NCBI RefSeq assembly: GCF_018588945.1
Contig: NZ_JAFIWA010000002.1
Coordinates: forward strand, 62,001-126,000
Source of the DNA: Microbacterium flavescens
GTDB taxonomy: Bacteria; Actinomycetota; Actinomycetes; Actinomycetales; Microbacteriaceae
DNA length: 64,000 bases
Direction of reading: 5' to 3'
This document shows positions 31,870-46,803 of the stretch, one piece after another. The notes below the pieces were generated by a model. The model saw only the letters and a list, made by a program, of their open reading frames with translations, had not been told where the DNA came from and did no database searches. Within the stretch, counting starts at the first letter, position 1. Each line of letters starts with the position of its first letter. The position numbers and the translations under genes are program-made.

Positions 31870-33261
31870 TCAGTCCGAGAACACCTTGCCCGGGTTCAGG
31901 ATGCCGAGCGGGTCGAACTCGCGCGTGATCCGGCGCTGCAGGTCCCACTGGTCGGCGCCGAGCTCTTCGACGAGCCAGCGGCGCTTGAGCACGCCGACGC
32001 CGTGCTCGCCCGTGAGCGTGCCGCCGAGGCGCAGCGCTGCGCGGAAGAGGTCGTCGGCGGCCGCCCAGATGTGAGCGGGCGCCTCGACGACGCCGAACTC
32101 GTCGGGCTCGGCATCGAAGATGAAGTTCGGGTGCAGGTTGCCGTCGCCCGCGTGCGCCACCGTCGGGATGACGACGCCGTGCTCGCGTTCCACCCGGGCG
32201 ATCTCGTCGAACATGGCGGGGAGCGCGCTGCGCGGCACCGAGACGTCTTCGATGAGGGCGGTGCCGAGGCTCTCCATCGCCGGGTGCATCGACCGTCGGA
32301 TCGCGAGCAGGCGCTCGCCCTCCTCGCGGTCGTGCGAGACCGCGACGGTGCCGCCCGCGGCGGTCAGGACGGCGGCGATCCGATCCGCCTCCGCACCGGC
32401 AGCGGGGCCGTCGGTCTGGATCGTCAGCTGCGCGGCGCCGGGGGTCGGCGGCTCGAGCGACAGGAGCGCGTGGACGGCGGCGAGGGACGCGGCATCCATC
32501 AGCTCCATGATCGCGGGCTGCGCACCCGACGCCGTGACCGCAGCGGATGCCTCGGCCGCGGTACGCACACCCGGGAACGTGGCCGCGATCGTGCACACCT
32601 CCCCGGGCACGAGCCGGCGCAGCTTCAGGGTCGCGCTGACGACCACACCGAGCGTGCCCTCGGACCCGATGACGAGCGACGTCAGATCGAGTCCGGTCAC
32701 GCCCTTCACCGTCCGGTGGCCGAGGCGCAGCAGGCGGCCGTCGGCGAGCACGAGGTCGACGCCCAGCACCGCGTCGCGCACCACGCCGTACTTCGCGCAC
32801 AGCAGGCCGCCCGCTCCGGTGGCGATGTTGCCGCCGACCGTCGAGATCGCACGGCTGGCGGGATCGGGAGCCCACCACAGCCCGTGCTCGGCCAGAGCGG
32901 CGTTGAGGTCGGCGTTGATGATGCCCGGTTCGACGACGGCGAGCAGGTCGTCAGGACGCACCTCGAGGATGCGATCCATTCCTCTCACCGAGAGGGCGAT
33001 CTCGCCGGCGCCGGCGTTCGCGGCTCCGGCCAGGCCGGTGCCGGCTCCGCGGGTGACGACGGGCGTCCTGGTGGCGGTCGCGATGCGGAGGGTCTGCTGC
33101 ACATCGGTCACCGAAGCCGCGTGGACGACAGCGAGCGGGATTCCGGATGCCGCGTGCCCCGACTTGTCGGCGCGTGCGGCGGCGAGCGACCCGGGGGAGG
33201 TGTCGACGCGGTCTCCGAGCGCGGCGCGCAGCTGCGCGACGACGTCGGCCGGCTCGGTCAC
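31870..33261 (-). CDS. FAD-linked oxidase (glycolate oxidase GlcD/D-lactate dehydrogenase family)
   Basis: 463 residues. PCMH-type FAD-binding domain with TRGAGTGLAGAAN, STVGGNIATGAGGLLCAKYG and LVIGSEGTLGVV, then the FAD-oxidase C domain with TVAHAGDGNLHPNF and GEHGVG. Oxidises an alpha-hydroxy acid (glycolate, D-lactate or similar); the substrate is not resolvable. GTG at 33261 overlaps the stop of the upstream DUF2568 gene by 4 nt, which defines the start. Confidence 0.92.
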   Translation of the reverse strand: MTEPADVVAQLRAALGDRVDTSPGSLAAARADKSGHAASGIPLAVVHAASVTDVQQTLRIATATRTPVVTRGAGTGLAGAANAGAGEIALSVRGMDRILEVRPDDLLAVVEPGIINADLNAALAEHGLWWAPDPASRAISTVGGNIATGAGGLLCAKYGVVRDAVLGVDLVLADGRLLRLGHRTVKGVTGLDLTSLVIGSEGTLGVVVSATLKLRRLVPGEVCTIAATFPGVRTAAEASAAVTASGAQPAIMELMDAASLAAVHALLSLEPPTPGAAQLTIQTDGPAAGAEADRIAAVLTAAGGTVAVSHDREEGERLLAIRRSMHPAMESLGTALIEDVSVPRSALPAMFDEIARVEREHGVVIPTVAHAGDGNLHPNFIFDAEPDEFGVVEAPAHIWAAADDLFRAALRLGGTLTGEHGVGVLKRRWLVEELGADQWDLQRRITREFDPLGILNPGKVFSD

Positions 33262-33644
33262 GCGAACCGGCGCCGGCCCGCGATCACGCCGATCGTCACG
33301 GCGACCACGCCGAAGCCCAGCCCGATCCAGGCCTGGTCCATGCTCCACCACGCGATGGTCGCCGAGGCGTACACGAGGAGCTCGACCAGGGCGCGGACGA
33401 ACGGATGCACCGCGAACACGGCGCGGGGAGAGACGAACAGGGCCCACACCACGATGGCCAGGAGGGGTGCGCCGATGCCCGCGACGATGTTCCATGGGAA
33501 CGGCCAGGACGCGAAGCCCCAGATGGCGAGGGTGGCGAACGCGAAGAGCTGGCAGAGGAGAGCGAGGATGTCGATCGCCGACAGGGGGGCCCGCGTGCCC
33601 GGGACGGGCTCGGCGGACGACGCGGGGCGTGCGGAGTCGGACAT
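33258..33644 (-). CDS. YrdB family protein (DUF2568), small membrane protein
   Basis: 128 residues with four hydrophobic helices (for example ILALLCQLFAFATLAIWG and IVAGIGAPLLAIVVWALF) after a polar N-terminal stretch of about 20. Fits the DUF2568/YrdB family. Function unknown. Translationally coupled to the FAD-linked oxidase through a GTGA overlap. Confidence 0.8.
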   Translation of the reverse strand: MSDSARPASSAEPVPGTRAPLSAIDILALLCQLFAFATLAIWGFASWPFPWNIVAGIGAPLLAIVVWALFVSPRAVFAVHPFVRALVELLVYASATIAWWSMDQAWIGLGFGVVAVTIGVIAGRRRFA

Positions 33645-33694: not shown

Positions 33695-35752
33695 TCAGCC
33701 GAGCGCGCTCAGCTTCGCACCGACCGGCGGGCCGACGTGGGCACCTTCGACGTAGCGCAACTCGAGGCGGGCATCCGCCGCGATCTCGGCGGCCGTGGGC
33801 GCGAGGGTGAGAACGCCGATTCCGCTGCCATCGAGGGTCGTCGTCGCGTGAACCGCGCCGCGGATCCGCGCCTGCACGGATGCGCCTGCGGCACCGCTGA
33901 CCGTCACGTCGATCGTCGTCTGACCCGACCCCGTCGACGCGGTGCTCGAGACGATCGAGGGCGTTCCAGCGGGAAGGGAGGGTCCTGCGGGCTTTCCGGC
34001 GCCGCCGGCGTTGCTGTTGGAGCTGCCGCTGTTCGCGTTGCCGCTCTGCGGGGTGCCGTTGTTCACGCCCGGGGCCGTGTTCCCGTTGTTCGTGCCGCCG
34101 TTGTTGGTTCCGGCGTGCGCGTTGGCGTTCGCGTTGGCATTGGCGTTGCCGCTGGCGCTGGCGCTGGCGCCGTTGTTGGTGCTGCCGTTGTTCGTGCCGC
34201 CGTTGTTCGTGACGCCGCTGGGGGTGCTGGTGGGGCCGTTGCCGGTGCCCGTGGCTCCGTTGCCGGTTCCGGCGTTGCTCGTACCGCCCGCGTCGGTGCT
34301 GCCGGAGCCGTTGGCCGGAGCATCCGCGTTCCCATCGCTGCCGCCGCCCGCGCCCGCGTTCTCAGCCGGGGAGCCGCCGTCGGACTGCTCATGCGCTGAG
34401 GCATCGGTCGACTCCGACGGAATCACCGGGATGTCGGCAGGCGAGGGGCCGCCCGGCGCGGAGATGGGGATCGTCCCCTCCTCGATCGTCTCGAGAGGGG
34501 TGTCGTGCGCATCGGCCAGAGTCCGCACGGACGCAGTCTCGACGTCCGACGGAGCACGGCCAGGCGACTCCGGCAGTGCGATCGCGGCCGCGACCGTCCC
34601 GGCGACGACGAGTCCGGCCGCTGCGAGGCCGGCCACACCCGCCCCCGTGAGCACGCCGCCCGTGGCGGCGGCGGCGGTCACCGTCGCCGCAGCGCCCGCG
34701 GCACCGACACCGGCGGCTGCCGCTCCGGCAGTCGCGGCCGATCCGGCACCGGCGGCCGATCCTGCGCCGACGAGGGTCGATGAAGCGGCGGCTGCACTCC
34801 CGGCCGCCGTGGATCCTGCCGCTGCCGCCGAGGAGCCGACACCCGCCGCGCCGATCCCGGCCGCAGCGGATCCGGCCGAGCCCGCGCCCGCGGTCACGGC
34901 GCCCTGGACCACCGACGACGGCATCGCGGCGAGTGCGATGATCGGCACGCCGCTCTGCAGCGTCGCCAGGTATCCGGCGGTGCCGACCACTCCGACCGTG
35001 AGCGGGATGAGCACCAGGGCCAGGCGGCTCGAAACCTCCCGAGCCTCGCTCGCGACGATCGCGCAGCGCGCGCAGCCCGCGAGGTGCTCCTCGACGCGGG
35101 CCCGATCACGGCGTCCGACGTTGTTGCGCGCGTATGCGCCGAGCCGTTCGATCGACCAGGCGCAGTCCGAGCCGTCGGCGACCGAGCGCAGGTGCGCCTG
35201 GATCCACGCCTCCCGCAGGCCCTCTCGCGCGCGGAAGGTGAGCTGTGCGACGGCGGTCGCCTTCATGCCGAGCAGCGGCGCAATCTCGGAGGGCTTCATG
35301 CGCTCGATCTCCGAGTACCAGAGCACCTCCTGCCAGCGGGTCGGGAGGCTGCGGAACGCCTGGTGGGTCAGCCCTCGGTCGAGCGATGCGGCGGTCGCCT
35401 CGTCGGTCGTCGTCGGGTCTTCGAGCGTCTCGATCTCGTCGATGGTGGTCTCGCGCCGGCTGCGGCCCCAGCCGGCAGCCGTGTTGCGGATGCTGGTGAA
35501 CAGGTAGGCGCGGAACGATCCGGTCGGACCCCCGCCGCGCTGGATCGACTGGAAGATCTTCGTGTACGCCTCTTGCACGAGGTCGTCGGGGTCGGTCGTC
35601 GGCGAGACGCTGCGGGCGACGGCGATGCCGGAGCGGTAGTGGCGTCGCCACAGCTCGCCGAAGGCGGTGGCGTCACCGGACCTGCTGCGCAGGACGAGAT
35701 CGACGTCGGCGATCTCCGCCGGCGGATCGGTCGTCGCGTCGTGTTCGGTCAC
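33695..35752 (-). CDS. ECF sigma factor fused to zinc-finger, membrane region and Asn/Gly-rich extracellular part
   Basis: 685 residues in one uninterrupted frame. Residues about 20-95 form sigma region 2 (DPDDLVQEAYTKIFQSIQRG), and 130-190 form region 4 (LPTRWQEVLWYSEIERMKPS). An anti-sigma-like zinc motif EEHLAGCARC follows near 225, then a hydrophobic segment near 240-265. Residues about 280-400 are Ala/Gly-rich with a further hydrophobic helix near 375-400. Residues about 445-610 are low complexity (repeats of NNGGTNNG and NANANAN), ending in a small beta-rich domain. This resembles the ECF52/53-type membrane-tethered sigma factors of actinobacteria. Start is GTG at 35752. Release by proteolysis is a plausible activation route. 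Confidence 0.85.
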   Translation of the reverse strand: MTEHDATTDPPAEIADVDLVLRSRSGDATAFGELWRRHYRSGIAVARSVSPTTDPDDLVQEAYTKIFQSIQRGGGPTGSFRAYLFTSIRNTAAGWGRSRRETTIDEIETLEDPTTTDEATAASLDRGLTHQAFRSLPTRWQEVLWYSEIERMKPSEIAPLLGMKATAVAQLTFRAREGLREAWIQAHLRSVADGSDCAWSIERLGAYARNNVGRRDRARVEEHLAGCARCAIVASEAREVSSRLALVLIPLTVGVVGTAGYLATLQSGVPIIALAAMPSSVVQGAVTAGAGSAGSAAAGIGAAGVGSSAAAAGSTAAGSAAAASSTLVGAGSAAGAGSAATAGAAAAGVGAAGAAATVTAAAATGGVLTGAGVAGLAAAGLVVAGTVAAAIALPESPGRAPSDVETASVRTLADAHDTPLETIEEGTIPISAPGGPSPADIPVIPSESTDASAHEQSDGGSPAENAGAGGGSDGNADAPANGSGSTDAGGTSNAGTGNGATGTGNGPTSTPSGVTNNGGTNNGSTNNGASASASGNANANANANAHAGTNNGGTNNGNTAPGVNNGTPQSGNANSGSSNSNAGGAGKPAGPSLPAGTPSIVSSTASTGSGQTTIDVTVSGAAGASVQARIRGAVHATTTLDGSGIGVLTLAPTAAEIAADARLELRYVEGAHVGPPVGAKLSALG

Positions 35753-36190
35753 AGTCTCCCCCAGTCGACTGGGCGGTCATGATCGCTCCCCAGCGGCGAC
35801 CGGCCCAAGCGGCCCCGAGCTGAACGGGCCACCGGGTCCATTCTGACGGCGAACCGCTGATTTGGCCAGATCAATCCTCCAATCGGTGCGCGCTTCGGGT
35901 GGTGCGTGCGGATCCCCTCGGGAATTTCTCGGAACCCGCGTAATAGAACGCCCGACGCGCCGTCTCATGGGTGACACATCGTTGCTCACCGAATCGTGGG
36001 GATCAGGTGAGCATCGGCGAAGGACGGATTTCCGTCCGTGTCGCCGAAGGCGGGGCTCGGTGGGAACTCGGGGGAGGGACCACCGGCCCCGCTCTACCCC
36101 TGGACTGCGTGGCCACGCCCGAATGGCAGCGGTCGCCACTCACGCTCCGTCCGTCGCGCAGCACCCCGGTTTGCGCGGCGGGCGGACCAG
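35753..36190. other. 438-bp gene-free region upstream of the ECF sigma fusion
   Basis: I find no convincing ORF on either strand. It should hold the sigma-factor promoter (reading leftwards) and the nagA terminator hairpin at 36014-36047. I could not find a clear GGAAC/CGTC ECF promoter pair with normal spacing. Confidence 0.5.
36014..36047. terminator. Strong hairpin downstream of nagA
   Basis: Outer arms TCGGCGA/TCGCCGA and inner arms GGACGGA/TCCGTCC with a 2-nt loop. It lies about 144 bp after the nagA stop, in an otherwise gene-free stretch. Could terminate nagA transcripts or be an independent structured element. Confidence 0.5.
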
Positions 36191-37318
36191 TCAGACCGTC
36201 GCGCCGCCGACCCAGACGCGGCTCACGCGCAGGTCGGCATCGAGCAGCACGGCGTCCGCGACGCCGCCGACCGCGAGCGTGCCGAGATCGGATCGTCCGA
36301 CGGCCCTCGCCGGCGTCGACGTGAGCGCGCGCACCGCCGTCGGCAGCGGCACCCCCGCCGCCACCACGCGGCGCAGGGCTTCGTCCTGCGTCAGGGTCGA
36401 GCCGGCGATGGCACCGCCCTCGTCCAGCCGTGCCACACCGTCATCGACGGTGACCGCGAGGCCGCCGAGCTCGTAGCGACCGTCGGCCGACCCGGCGGCG
36501 GCCATCGCGTCGGTCACGAGCGCGACGCGATCACCGGCGGCCGCGAACGTGACGGCGATCAGGTCGAGGTCGACGTGAGCGCCGTCGGCGACCAGCTCCA
36601 GGATCACTCTCCCGTCCCGCATCGCGGCGACGACCGGACCGGGCGCGCGGTGGTGGATGCCGGGCATCGCATTGAAGGCGTGCGTGAGGATGGTGGCCCC
36701 GGCGTCGAACGCGCGTCGAGCGGCGTCCGCATCGGCGTTCGTGTGCCCGACGGCCACAGCGACGCCGGCGTCGACGAACCGCCCGATCGCCTCGTCCGCG
36801 CCCGGCAGCTCCGGAGCGAGCGTGACCTGGCGGATCGTGCCTCGTCCCGCCTCGAGGAGACGATCGACGGATGCCGCATCCGGCGCCCGCAGGAGCGCCT
36901 CGGTGTGCGCGCCCTTGTGTCCCGGATCGAGGAACGGCCCCTCCAGGTGCGAGCCGAGGATGCCGGGGTCGGCGGCGGCGAGGTCGGCGACCATGGCCAC
37001 GCGCGCGACCAGGTCGTCGAGCGATGCCGTGACCAGCGACACCACGGCCCGGGTCGTGCCGTGCGCCAGGTGCAGCGTCCGCGCCGTGCGGATCGCGTCC
37101 GGACCGTCGTCGTAGCTCGCGCCGGCGCCGCCGTGCCCGTGGATGTCGACGAAGCCGGGGACGAGGCATCCACCACCGCCGTCGATGACCTCGTCGGACG
37201 CCGGTCGATCCCGGCCGACGCCGGCTGCGCGAACCCGGCCGTCGTCGAACAGCACCCACGCGTCGTCCCTGACGCGTCCGTCGTCGACGAGCCGCACCGC
37301 GTGGACGAGTGCGCTCAC
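36191..37318 (-). CDS. nagA: N-acetylglucosamine-6-phosphate deacetylase
   Basis: 375 residues of the amidohydrolase superfamily. Metal- and substrate-binding segments: VPGFVDIHGHGGAGASYDDG, SHLEGPFLDPGHKGAH, VAVGHTNAD, THAFNAMPG and the catalytic Asp in VALVTDAMAAAG. Converts GlcNAc-6-P to GlcN-6-P for NagB. GTG at 37318 overlaps the stop of the hexosaminidase gene (GTGA), so the two are one operon, separate from but functionally linked to the importer operon at 25533. Confidence 0.95.
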   Translation of the reverse strand: MSALVHAVRLVDDGRVRDDAWVLFDDGRVRAAGVGRDRPASDEVIDGGGGCLVPGFVDIHGHGGAGASYDDGPDAIRTARTLHLAHGTTRAVVSLVTASLDDLVARVAMVADLAAADPGILGSHLEGPFLDPGHKGAHTEALLRAPDAASVDRLLEAGRGTIRQVTLAPELPGADEAIGRFVDAGVAVAVGHTNADADAARRAFDAGATILTHAFNAMPGIHHRAPGPVVAAMRDGRVILELVADGAHVDLDLIAVTFAAAGDRVALVTDAMAAAGSADGRYELGGLAVTVDDGVARLDEGGAIAGSTLTQDEALRRVVAAGVPLPTAVRALTSTPARAVGRSDLGTLAVGGVADAVLLDADLRVSRVWVGGATV

Positions 37319-44714: not shown

Positions 44715-45770
44715 TCATCCCGCCGCGCGAGCGCGCGCCTCGGCCGCCGCCAGCGCGGCGGCCGCGCCCTCGGTGGGCGCGATCGCGACGAGCCCGCGAT
44801 ACAGCGTCACCAGGGCGTCGACGTCGAGCTCGCCCGTGCGGGCCCGGTCGCAGTGCACGGCCTGAATCGCCGCCTCGAGCTGGAACCTTCCGAGTGGCCG
44901 ACCGAGAGCCGACGCGCGGCGGAGCAGGGCTGCCCCTTCGACGATCATGCCGTGGTCCCAGTCGGACGGATCCTGCTCGTCGAGAGGCGGCCAGGGGACG
45001 GCTGTCCGTGCCGGAGCACGCGACTGCGCGTAGGTCAGCAGCGCAGCCAGACCCCACGCCTCCGGCTCGTCGTCGAGCAGGCTCGCGGCGAGCACCGCGA
45101 GCCATCGGGCCTCGTCGGCGAGTGACTCCCTCGGCTCGTCACCCTGGTCGAGCCACTCGAGCGCGTATGCGCCGTAGATCGCTTCGAGCACCGCCGGCAG
45201 ACGGGCCGGCATGTCGGCGCGGGTGGGCACGGCGAACGGGATGCCGGCGTCGCGGATCCGCCGCTTCGCCCGCACGAGTCTCTGCGCCATGGTCGCAGGC
45301 GGCACACCGAACGCGCGCGCCACGTCGGCGGCCTCGAAGCCGAGGACCGTCTGCAGCATGAGGGGCGAGCGCACGTCGGGGTCGATGGCCGGGTGCGCGC
45401 ACGCGAAGAGCAGCTCCAGCCGCTTGTCGGGGATGTCGTCGCGCCGCTCCACCACGGCGGTCGGATCGAGGGCCCGGTCGTCGGCGAGCGTCGCGGCGAC
45501 GGCCTCGTCGAGCGGCACGCCGGTGCGCCGGGCGGCCGAGCCGAGGGCGTCACGCAGTCGGTTGCGTGCCACGGTGAGCAGCCATCCTTCGGGATTGGCA
45601 GGGATGCCGGCATCCGGCCACGTCCTCAGCGCGCGCTCGAACGCATCGGCGAGGGCGTCCTCGGCGAGCGCGACGTCACGCGTGCCTGCGGCGACCAGCG
45701 CCAGGAGGTGACCGTACGACGTGCGGGCCGCGCGCTCGGTGGCGGACCGCACGTCGTCGGAGCCGGGCAT
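44715..45770 (-). CDS. ECF42-type RNA polymerase sigma factor (DUF6596), shortened C-terminus
   Basis: 351 residues. Sigma-2 core (ALVAAGTRDVALAEDALADAFERALR) and sigma-4 region (LMLQTVLGFEAADVARAFGV), then the DUF6596 domain (AIYGAYALEW, EARWLAVLAASLL). Normal ECF42 proteins are about 400 residues and end in a TPR-like part with a SPVVxLNRAVAV motif; here the sequence passes from TLYRGLVAIAPT to a short Ala-rich end, so that part is missing. ATG at 45770 overlaps the stop of the YCII gene, its usual partner. Confidence 0.88.
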   Translation of the reverse strand: MPGSDDVRSATERAARTSYGHLLALVAAGTRDVALAEDALADAFERALRTWPDAGIPANPEGWLLTVARNRLRDALGSAARRTGVPLDEAVAATLADDRALDPTAVVERRDDIPDKRLELLFACAHPAIDPDVRSPLMLQTVLGFEAADVARAFGVPPATMAQRLVRAKRRIRDAGIPFAVPTRADMPARLPAVLEAIYGAYALEWLDQGDEPRESLADEARWLAVLAASLLDDEPEAWGLAALLTYAQSRAPARTAVPWPPLDEQDPSDWDHGMIVEGAALLRRASALGRPLGRFQLEAAIQAVHCDRARTGELDVDALVTLYRGLVAIAPTEGAAAALAAAEARARAAG

Positions 45771-46150
45771 CACACCGCGAAGCTCGTCCAGGCGCCGTCG
45801 ACGAACCGGGTCGCCGTCGGCCGGATCTCGACCGTGCCCCACCCGATGGACGGAGCCTGGGCGGCCCACCCGATCGCGGCGTCGAGGTCGTCGACCTCGA
45901 TCACGAACGTGCCGCCGAGCTGCTCCTTGGTGTCGGCGAACGGGCCGTCCTGCACGCGCAGCGTGCCGTCCGGCGCGGTGACCGAGGTCGTCACGGCCGA
46001 GGGCTGCAGCACCTCGGCCGACCGCAGCACGCCGGCCGCGTCGATCGCCTTGGCGTACTCGTCGAACTCGCGCATGCCTTCGGCCCAGGCATCCGGCCCC
46101 ATGTCGTCGGAGGTCATCTCGGGATAGTGGAGGAGGAGCGTGTAACGCAT
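45770..46150 (-). CDS. YCII-related (DGPF domain) protein
   Basis: 126 residues with YTLLLHYPE at the N-terminus and the signature QDGPFADTKEQLGG. Such proteins are the constant neighbours of ECF42 sigma factors and may sense a signal for them. ATG at 46150 with GGACGACAT immediately upstream; the stop overlaps the sigma-factor start. Confidence 0.9.
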   Translation of the reverse strand: MRYTLLLHYPEMTSDDMGPDAWAEGMREFDEYAKAIDAAGVLRSAEVLQPSAVTTSVTAPDGTLRVQDGPFADTKEQLGGTFVIEVDDLDAAIGWAAQAPSIGWGTVEIRPTATRFVDGAWTSFAV

Positions 46151-46230
46151 GATGTCGTCCTTTCGTCAGTGCTGCGACACCACGATGACGATCGAGGATG
46201 CCGCGGATCGACAGCCCTGCGGGATTCTCC

Positions 46231-46803
46231 TCAGCCCTTGCCGAGCTCGTCGAGCATGCGCCGCTGCTCGTCGGTGAGCCCGTCATGGAGCTCGCGACGG
46301 CCCGCGGCCTCCTCGGGACTCGGGATGCGCGGAGCCGAGTCAGCCGATACCGCCGCCGTCGAACCCCTGCCTCCGGAGGCCCGGTCGTACAGGGAGCCGG
46401 CGTGTGCCTCGACCTTGTCGTCGATCGCGTCGTAGATCGCCCAGCCGATGAGGAGGATCACCGGGGGGAGCACGTATCCCCAGAAAGCTCCGAAGAAGCC
46501 GCCCCCGATCGAGACGCCCGACAGCCACACGGTCGCGATCCATACCAGGAACGCGACGGCGAACCCGAGCAGGAACTCGACGAACTTCTCACCCGCCTTG
46601 GTCCGCTGATTCGCCGACTTCGCCGCCATCGAGCGGAACCAGCGGTGAACGGCCGGCTTGATCCAGATGACGAGCGCCGTCATGACGATGGCGGCCCACA
46701 GAGCGGACCAGCCGACCCGCGCGGGCGTCAGGAATCCGATGACGAGCAGCACGACGATGTTGAAGACCAGCAGCGACGCGAAACGGACGATCCACTTCCT
46801 CAT
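46231..46803 (-). CDS. Hypothetical membrane protein
   Basis: 190 residues. About four hydrophobic helices (FASLLVFNIVVLLVIGFL, ALWAAIVMTALVIWI, FLLGFAVAFLVWIATVWL, YVLPPVILLIGWAIYDAI) and a polar C-terminal tail of about 60 residues ending in LHDGLTDEQRRMLDELGKG, a helix often seen in such tails. Unrecognised family. ATG at 46803. Confidence 0.75.
   Translation of the reverse strand: MRKWIVRFASLLVFNIVVLLVIGFLTPARVGWSALWAAIVMTALVIWIKPAVHRWFRSMAAKSANQRTKAGEKFVEFLLGFAVAFLVWIATVWLSGVSIGGGFFGAFWGYVLPPVILLIGWAIYDAIDDKVEAHAGSLYDRASGGRGSTAAVSADSAPRIPSPEEAAGRRELHDGLTDEQRRMLDELGKG

Follow-up and report, generated by a model that had tools for sequence, protein, structure and literature searches.

A sigma factor fused to its zinc anti-sigma domain in Microbacterium, with a promoter-like element and a putative divergent small RNA

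The window analysed here, 64,000 nucleotides of contig NZ_JAFIWA010000002.1 of Microbacterium flavescens, contains a minus-strand gene (33695..35752) that encodes a protein of 685 amino acids in a frame free of interruption from its GTG start, located after CTGGGGGAGACT, to the stop codon. All parts of the protein described below lie on the same strand. The N-terminal portion consists of sigma region 2 (residues 34-98, 35459..35653; Pfam Sigma70_r2, E 9.6e-8) and sigma region 4 (residues 130-177, 35222..35365; Sigma70_r4_2, E 3.3e-6), followed by a zinc anti-sigma motif (zf-HC2, residues 197-231, 35060..35164; E 1.5e-8), all three over the Pfam cut-offs. The presence of regions 2 and 4, with neither region 3 nor region 1, identifies an ECF sigma factor, and the NCBIfam sigma70-ECF model scores 74.7 bits on the protein against a cut-off of 42.9. 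The anti-sigma part has the Hx3Cx2C motif and the upstream fourth ligand of a ZAS domain (C197, H223, C227, C230); among 42 aligned rows, the window included, H223 and C227 are invariant and C197 and C230 are retained in at least 90%. Next come a hydrophobic segment, H1 (residues 244-262, 34967..35023; hydropathy 2.02), an uncharged Ala/Gly/Ser stretch of 107 residues (264-370, 34643..34963), a second hydrophobic segment, H2 (about residues 371-393, with the peak at about 365-395; 34574..34642; hydropathy 2.18), a linker that is acidic and then Asn/Gly-rich (residues 400-588, 33989..34555), and a C-terminal Ig-like beta domain (residues 589-685, 97 residues, 33698..33988). Thus, the covalent union of a sigma factor and a zinc anti-sigma domain with hydrophobic segments, proposed in the first-pass annotation from the letters alone, is confirmed by the domain matches, the zinc ligands and the hydropathy.

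The structure predicted by AlphaFold2 for residues 1-290 (mean pLDDT 80.9, pTM just 0.48) shows the sigma and zinc-finger helices with good confidence and then a helix over H1 (residues 244-265), and its best matches among solved structures are ECF sigma factors, with Escherichia coli sigmaE in first place (E 1.5e-5). The terminal domain is modelled as a seven-strand Ig-like sandwich with a mean pLDDT of 91.8, in agreement with the small beta domain expected at this end of the protein. The Foldseek matches of this domain to solved structures are weak (best E 0.019, none at E <=0.001), and there is no Pfam carbohydrate-binding match in residues 589-685. The Asn/Gly-rich low-complexity stretch is present as first noticed; its length is 138 residues (451-588; 25% G, 20% N) rather than about 165.

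The direction in which the outer part of the protein points depends on which hydrophobic segments cross the membrane. If both did, the linker and the Ig-like domain would be cytoplasmic, an arrangement that is compatible with the similar hydropathy of H1 and H2. The basic residues leave the direction unsettled: in a set of 95 proteins, whose start codons are partly heuristic and whose loci include a few near-duplicates, K/R are more frequent in the 15 residues ahead of H2 than in the 15 behind it in 14 proteins, and the reverse holds in 18. At least two K/R precede H2 within 15 residues in 14 proteins of the set; this speaks for a cytoplasmic loop at that point and hence against two crossings, as does the acidity of the stretch after H2 (mean 1.37 D/E per 15 residues, compared with 0.23 before it). 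Charged residues are few or absent between H1 and H2 in the orthologs. Lectin and Ig domains, moreover, are typically found outside the cell, and two crossings appear quite unlikely to us. H2 is the likelier membrane-spanning helix of the two, which would leave the C-terminus outside, and H1 would either belong to the anti-sigma end or be a segment that does not span the membrane. The outer part of the protein is likely extracellular, with the charge statistics over the 95 proteins being mixed.

The sigma and zinc-finger part is matched at E 1e-20 or better in 108 of the 149 genomes of the genus, and these matches comprise an ortholog group (57-90% identity) and a more distant group (at most 50%); the ortholog is carried by 62 of the first 99 genomes. 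In its own genome, besides itself, the fused protein is matched by just two unfused sigma factors, with weak scores. The named relatives come from Microbacterium, Compostimonas, Plantibacter, Agromyces, Subtercola, Humibacter, Cellulosimicrobium, Puerhibacterium, Isoptericola, Rathayibacter, Leifsonia and Nocardioides, and nearly all full-length ones are continuous from the sigma regions into the outer part; the Streptomyces matches of the same scan, about 220-255 amino acids long, have no long extension. Because the same layout recurs in the Microbacterium orthologs and in other actinobacterial families, a fusion produced by sequencing error, the possibility that would have undone the original reading, is excluded. 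Tandem paralogs of the fused sigma factor occur at four loci (L068, L070, L072 and L073), with one of the L068 copies ending after sigma region 4, at 200 amino acids. The later part of two further relatives (L163 and L177) reads as if frame-shifted, being Arg-rich, and was left unmended.

An ortholog that is 88% identical (L046) has an Asn/Gly linker with NNGGTNNG repeats, whereas others carry, in the same place, the Pro/Thr/Asp/Glu repeats TPTPTP (L047, L060), DPTDPT (L048, L051), TEPTEP (L050) or VDPVDP (L055), or else NGNGNG (L056-L058, L151, L154), the last group having no C-terminal beta domain recognisable by eye. Because the letters are replaced between orthologs while the place is kept, the initial suggestion that the Asn/Gly linker binds the wall or chitin is unsupported, and the conserved chitin or wall binder was rejected as a candidate. 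The corrected reading of the linker is that its place is conserved and its composition is free, so that it reads as a spacer. The terminal domain itself is exchanged among genera: Laminin_G_3 in Leifsonia (L209), Big_6 in Puerhibacterium (L189), DUF11 and CARDB-like stretches in Isoptericola (L195, L196), and NPCBM (L233) or a ricin-type lectin (L237) in Streptomyces. At one ortholog locus (L062), the outer part is much longer and differently built.

Fused sigma factors of this kind are already known. The sections of PMC8999054 and PMC5826349 on such proteins describe ECF48, ECF52 and ECF53 as sigma factors to which a zinc anti-sigma domain and one or two membrane helices are fused and for which activation by proteolysis is expected, and the ECF52/53-like layout proposed at first sight agrees with these descriptions. 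The studied ECF52 member, SCO4117 of Streptomyces coelicolor, likewise combines sigma regions 2 and 4, a zinc finger, a membrane segment, a long low-complexity extension and a terminal domain in one protein, and is suspected of autoregulation (PMC5826349, in its account of SCO4117). The one-protein layout of ECF52 given there is found in the Microbacterium protein, the membrane crossing being predicted. In contrast, SCO4117 is described in that account with a proline-rich linker, an NPCBM-type domain and a proposed motif CSGYN-17-SRHA, compared with an Asn/Gly-rich linker, an Ig-like domain and GCGTAAT-N16-CGTCTC here; in the place of the terminal carbohydrate-binding domain of ECF52, residues 589-685 carry the Ig-like model. 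The C-terminal fusion of an anti-sigma domain and membrane helices, with proteolytic release expected, is shared with ECF53 and ECF48 as presented in the relevant parts of PMC8999054 and PMC10766802. Release by proteolysis was shown for another single-chain sigma and membrane anti-sigma fusion, IutY of Pseudomonas putida (ECF243), which differs in being FecR-type, in serving iron signalling in a Gram-negative bacterium and in its outer-membrane receptor (PMC8999054, in the passages on IutY). In three Streptomyces genomes, the best match is the NPCBM-bearing L233 (44% identity, E 1.4e-49); a tree of 41 rows places it together with three Streptomyces rows (99/99) and away from those of the Microbacteriaceae. 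Because of this separation, the protein, which is ECF52/53-like by layout when compared with the group descriptions, is filed in neither ECF52 nor ECF53.

The promoter motif search proposed in the first-pass annotation, carried out by comparing 41 upstream regions (the remainder after the removal of matches below 53% identity and of identical sequences), gave GCGTAAT-N16-CGTCTC beside the gene, in two orientations. With one pattern, 18 of these regions contain the element pointing toward the sigma gene, 21 contain it pointing away, and 10 contain neither; a looser pattern finds the divergent element in 33 of the 41. The most conserved copy points away from the sigma gene, and the window has this divergent copy alone (GCGTAATAGAACGCCCGACGCGCCGTCTC, 35938..35966, plus strand), the copy toward the sigma gene being absent. 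Of the 26 named Microbacterium orthologs, 20 have the element within 300 bp upstream, where the remainder of these loci would predict 0.05, and among 29 further loci it is found at 11, against an expectation of 0.13; these 11 are three Microbacterium loci and eight among 24 other-genus loci, namely Compostimonas, Agromyces, Humibacter, Cellulosimicrobium and four Nocardioidaceae; these counts are descriptive and not blind, given that the element was found from these upstream regions and the 300-bp pattern was tuned on such loci. Even so read, the spread of the element into other genera is hard to explain by chance. The upstream region of the Streptomyces relative L233 has no such element. The sigma gene itself probably has a basal promoter, with AGAATGG (35838..35844, minus strand, 92 bp upstream) as its probable -10 element; this heptamer occurs in 29 of the 41 upstream regions and in 0.7% of 2000 random windows. 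In the four Nocardioidaceae (L190, L193, L197 and L198), similar frames of about 250 codons (with RSGLPHRFEAVGEAL within them) follow the divergent element, in place of the hairpin RNA described below, and might represent a partner gene.

Directly upstream of the sigma gene is a nagA-type amidohydrolase gene (36191..37312, minus strand, start approximate; Pfam Amidohydro_1), and the next gene downstream encodes a small membrane protein of the DUF2568 family (33258..33644, minus strand). The gene was initially described as lying between amino-sugar genes, and so it does: one flank has Amidohydro_1 and GH20, and the other has an FAD-linked oxidase and then Glucosamine_iso (nagB) and a ROK kinase, all by Pfam. 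An arrangement of this kind would suit a protein that binds fragments of chitin or peptidoglycan through its linker and Ig-like domain and that controls the surrounding amino-sugar genes, and the association is widespread: nagA directly upstream and the DUF2568 gene directly downstream accompany the sigma gene at 21 of 26 ortholog loci, and in the named set nagA is upstream at 21 of 26, a contig end cutting two of the other five (L149, L156). The lectin-like outer domains of other relatives fit as well. The variable letters of the linker speak against such binding, however, and the sigma gene persists at three loci (L061, L062 and L083) where glyA and folD are kept and nagA and GH20 are absent nearby; of the 14 paralog loci (L066-L079), none has nag neighbours. 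Loose matches to the element in the window number 6 against 4.6 expected, and the divergent one is the sole intergenic site near the gene. Because no copy of the element precedes a nag gene in the window, control of the amino-sugar genes is unsupported; the amino-sugar regulon was rejected for this reason, and the chitin-sensing scheme as a whole seems improbable.

Beyond the sigma locus, GCGTMAT-N16-CGTCTC has 107 listed sites in 99 genomes, compared with 4 for a reversed control pattern. A tighter form (R or T, R, A after the first box), which was set after the sites had been seen, leaves 60 sites, of which 59 are in the 62 genomes with the ortholog (38 at the sigma locus and 21 elsewhere) and 1 is in the 37 genomes without it. 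These numbers bear on whether the element might belong to another sigma factor or regulator that controls the fused sigma gene. The genome encodes several ECF sigma factors (19 Sigma70_r2 matches), and the assignment of the element to this one is a proposal from sequence. The near-confinement of the tighter sites to ortholog-bearing genomes and the tracking of the family by the element into other genera nonetheless make another owner decidedly doubtful. Sigma promoters typically consist of two boxes at a fixed spacing, here 16 bp, which also suits recognition by a sigma factor.

Inspection covered 23 of the 59 listed non-locus sites, picked mainly for the tighter form, together with the second exact site and an N17 site of the window's own genome. 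That genome has only two exact copies of the element, and the second is located 248 nt before the gene of a membrane protein whose sequence includes a collagen-like stretch (Pfam Collagen, 26.8 bits, slightly under the cut-off of 27.2), with hairpins in between. In other genomes, the element stands no more than 150 nt ahead of genes for a SpaA_4 and DUF5979 protein with a LALTG-like signal at its end (L118), a second SpaA-type protein (SpaA, L133), a secreted protein with LATTG at its end (L134), a membrane protein with a GGDEF domain (L124), a GntR regulator (L138) and small hydrophobic proteins (L120, L126, L131); we take the LAxTG-like ends to be sorting signals. Similar Arg-rich peptides of 38-47 residues are encoded 22-47 nt after the element at three loci (L127, L135, L136). 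No clear target follows the element at four loci (L128, L130, L132, L140), some of which look like chance. The theme of these candidate targets appears to be the cell surface, not amino sugars. The Arg-rich peptides end in RDxxLxRxLR or a similar string. A GC-rich hairpin stretch directly after the element is common to L119, L122, L123 and L137, possibly a second small RNA or a leader, and at L119 and L137 it is followed by a hydrolase gene.

The divergent element faces a putative small RNA with three hairpins (35973..36105, plus strand, ends inferred), which is probably turned on by the fused sigma factor. The region folds at -76.1 kcal/mol (z -5.7), and its opposite strand folds too (z -6.0). 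Hairpin 1 (35983..36013, plus strand) has a loop with GGGG, and hairpin 3 (36045..36098, plus strand) has the loop CTCGGGGGAG, which stays nearly invariant among loci while the stem changes. A first alignment (A1, 24 rows) yielded 7 consensus pairs with the hairpins slid against each other and was replaced by a loop-anchored one (A5) of 31 of 37 windows, from which five windows with a weaker or differently formed hairpin (L023, L039, L084, L146, L165) and one near copy (L159) were omitted. In these 31 rows, changes on both sides of the stem affect 15 of 20 pairs, the cells with such changes number 66 against 29.2 in shuffles (sd 4.5, 0 of 500), and the covariation score is 0.293, compared with at most 0.183 when slid. 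A simpler test on 28 sequences agrees: 7.68 of 12 positions pair, whereas exchanging the arms gives 6.64 (0 of 2000).

A covariance model of the RNA, partly trained on genomes in which the matches arise, gives one match each in 29 of 99 genomes, all beside the sigma gene, and none in the 37 genomes without that gene. It misses copies in two genomes (G061 and G039) in which, by eye, the element and a G-rich-loop hairpin (L125, L139) are found together about 24 kb from the sigma gene. The idea that the divergent transcript codes for a short protein was considered and rejected: by eye, the frames after the element vary from locus to locus, and the relocated copies at L125 and L139 show a one-base length difference near their beginning. 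Rfam gives no convincing match at the RNA in the window and none at the RNA in seven other loci, where the matches over the cut-off are ZTP riboswitches away from the RNA. Two of these riboswitches are on the glyA/folD side, at L061:6063-6150 (minus strand) and L083:13065-13152 (plus strand).

The hairpin region also follows nagA, and the two strands fold about equally, as would be expected if the hairpins were a terminator region or 3' RNA of nagA on the other strand, with C-rich loops and no divergent RNA. The wobble pairs bear on the choice of strand: G-U cells outnumber A-C cells 48 to 20 overall, and the ratio is 16 to 1 when only the 14 best-formed rows are counted, and because of this excess the plus strand is favoured, the one that the divergent element would transcribe. 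A terminator, furthermore, has no need of an invariant loop, the hairpins occur at L169 with no nagA within 6 kb upstream, and the element and G-rich hairpin stay together at L125 and L139, some 24 kb from the sigma gene. We consider a nagA terminator or 3' RNA unlikely and favour a small RNA of the plus strand.

Fused sigma and anti-sigma proteins are predicted in large numbers, with promoter, targets and signal known for very few. We infer from the domains and their conservation, from the element and its enrichment and from the covariation of the RNA a one-protein transmembrane switch, to which we assign a probability of roughly 0.6. At rest, the zinc anti-sigma part would mask sigma regions 2 and 4 of its own chain, and a hydrophobic helix, probably H2, would anchor the protein in the membrane, while the variable linker would carry the small Ig-like domain away from the membrane and into the wall or through it. 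Cleavage, brought about by a change at the surface, would free the sigma part, which would recognise GCGTMAT-N16-CGTC promoters and activate its own gene in many species, the divergent small RNA with G-rich hairpin loops in most species, and genes for surface-anchored and membrane proteins elsewhere in the genome. Counting against this scheme are the 10 of 41 upstream regions with the element in neither orientation, the four sites that look like chance or have no clear target, the presence of just two exact copies in the window's own genome, the mixed topology statistics and the pTM of 0.48. What appears to be new, as far as our searches of the open-licence literature reach, is the promoter element with its candidate targets, the divergent RNA and the free composition of the linker, for which we found no earlier report. 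A precise 29-bp promoter element with candidate targets across genera makes the group directly testable, and the RNA, if real, would be an undescribed Microbacterium small RNA tied to a sigma factor that acts alone.

The closest known parallel to the divergent RNA is the 6C RNA of actinobacteria (RF01066), which also has hairpins with loops rich in a single base, one of them terminator-like; its loops are C-rich, in contrast to the G-rich loops here, and its covariance model has no match at E up to 5 in the window between 33000 and 37400. Elsewhere, a threshold of E up to 0.1 gives 6C-like matches in 18 of 59 genomes, with 3 over the cut-off. The window's own genome has a 6C-like match of 37.1 bits, short of the cut-off of 47, which contains ACCCCCCGAAG and could form seven pairs with UCGGGGG of the hairpin loop. 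At L143, the 6C-like RNA has CCCCCGA, the complement of the same UCGGGGG; such complementarity is of limited weight, as G-runs pair with C-runs by nature. The hairpin loop also resembles CTGGGGGAG before the sigma start. In mycobacteria, the 6C homologue B11 pairs with targets through a C-rich loop, according to the passages on B11 in PMC12395582. Pairing of the RNA loop with the C-rich loops of 6C, or its likeness to CTGGGGGAG, is offered as a suggestion only. That the loops of a divergent RNA made by the freed sigma factor pair with 6C-type RNAs or imitate the CUGGGGGAG ribosome-binding sites ahead of the sigma gene and its targets strikes us as very improbable; if true, the switch would control surface proteins at transcription and translation together.

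The window encodes a second sigma factor (44718-46286, minus strand), with Sigma70_r2, Sigma70_r4_2 and a C-terminal DUF6596, which presumably resembles the ECF42 type.
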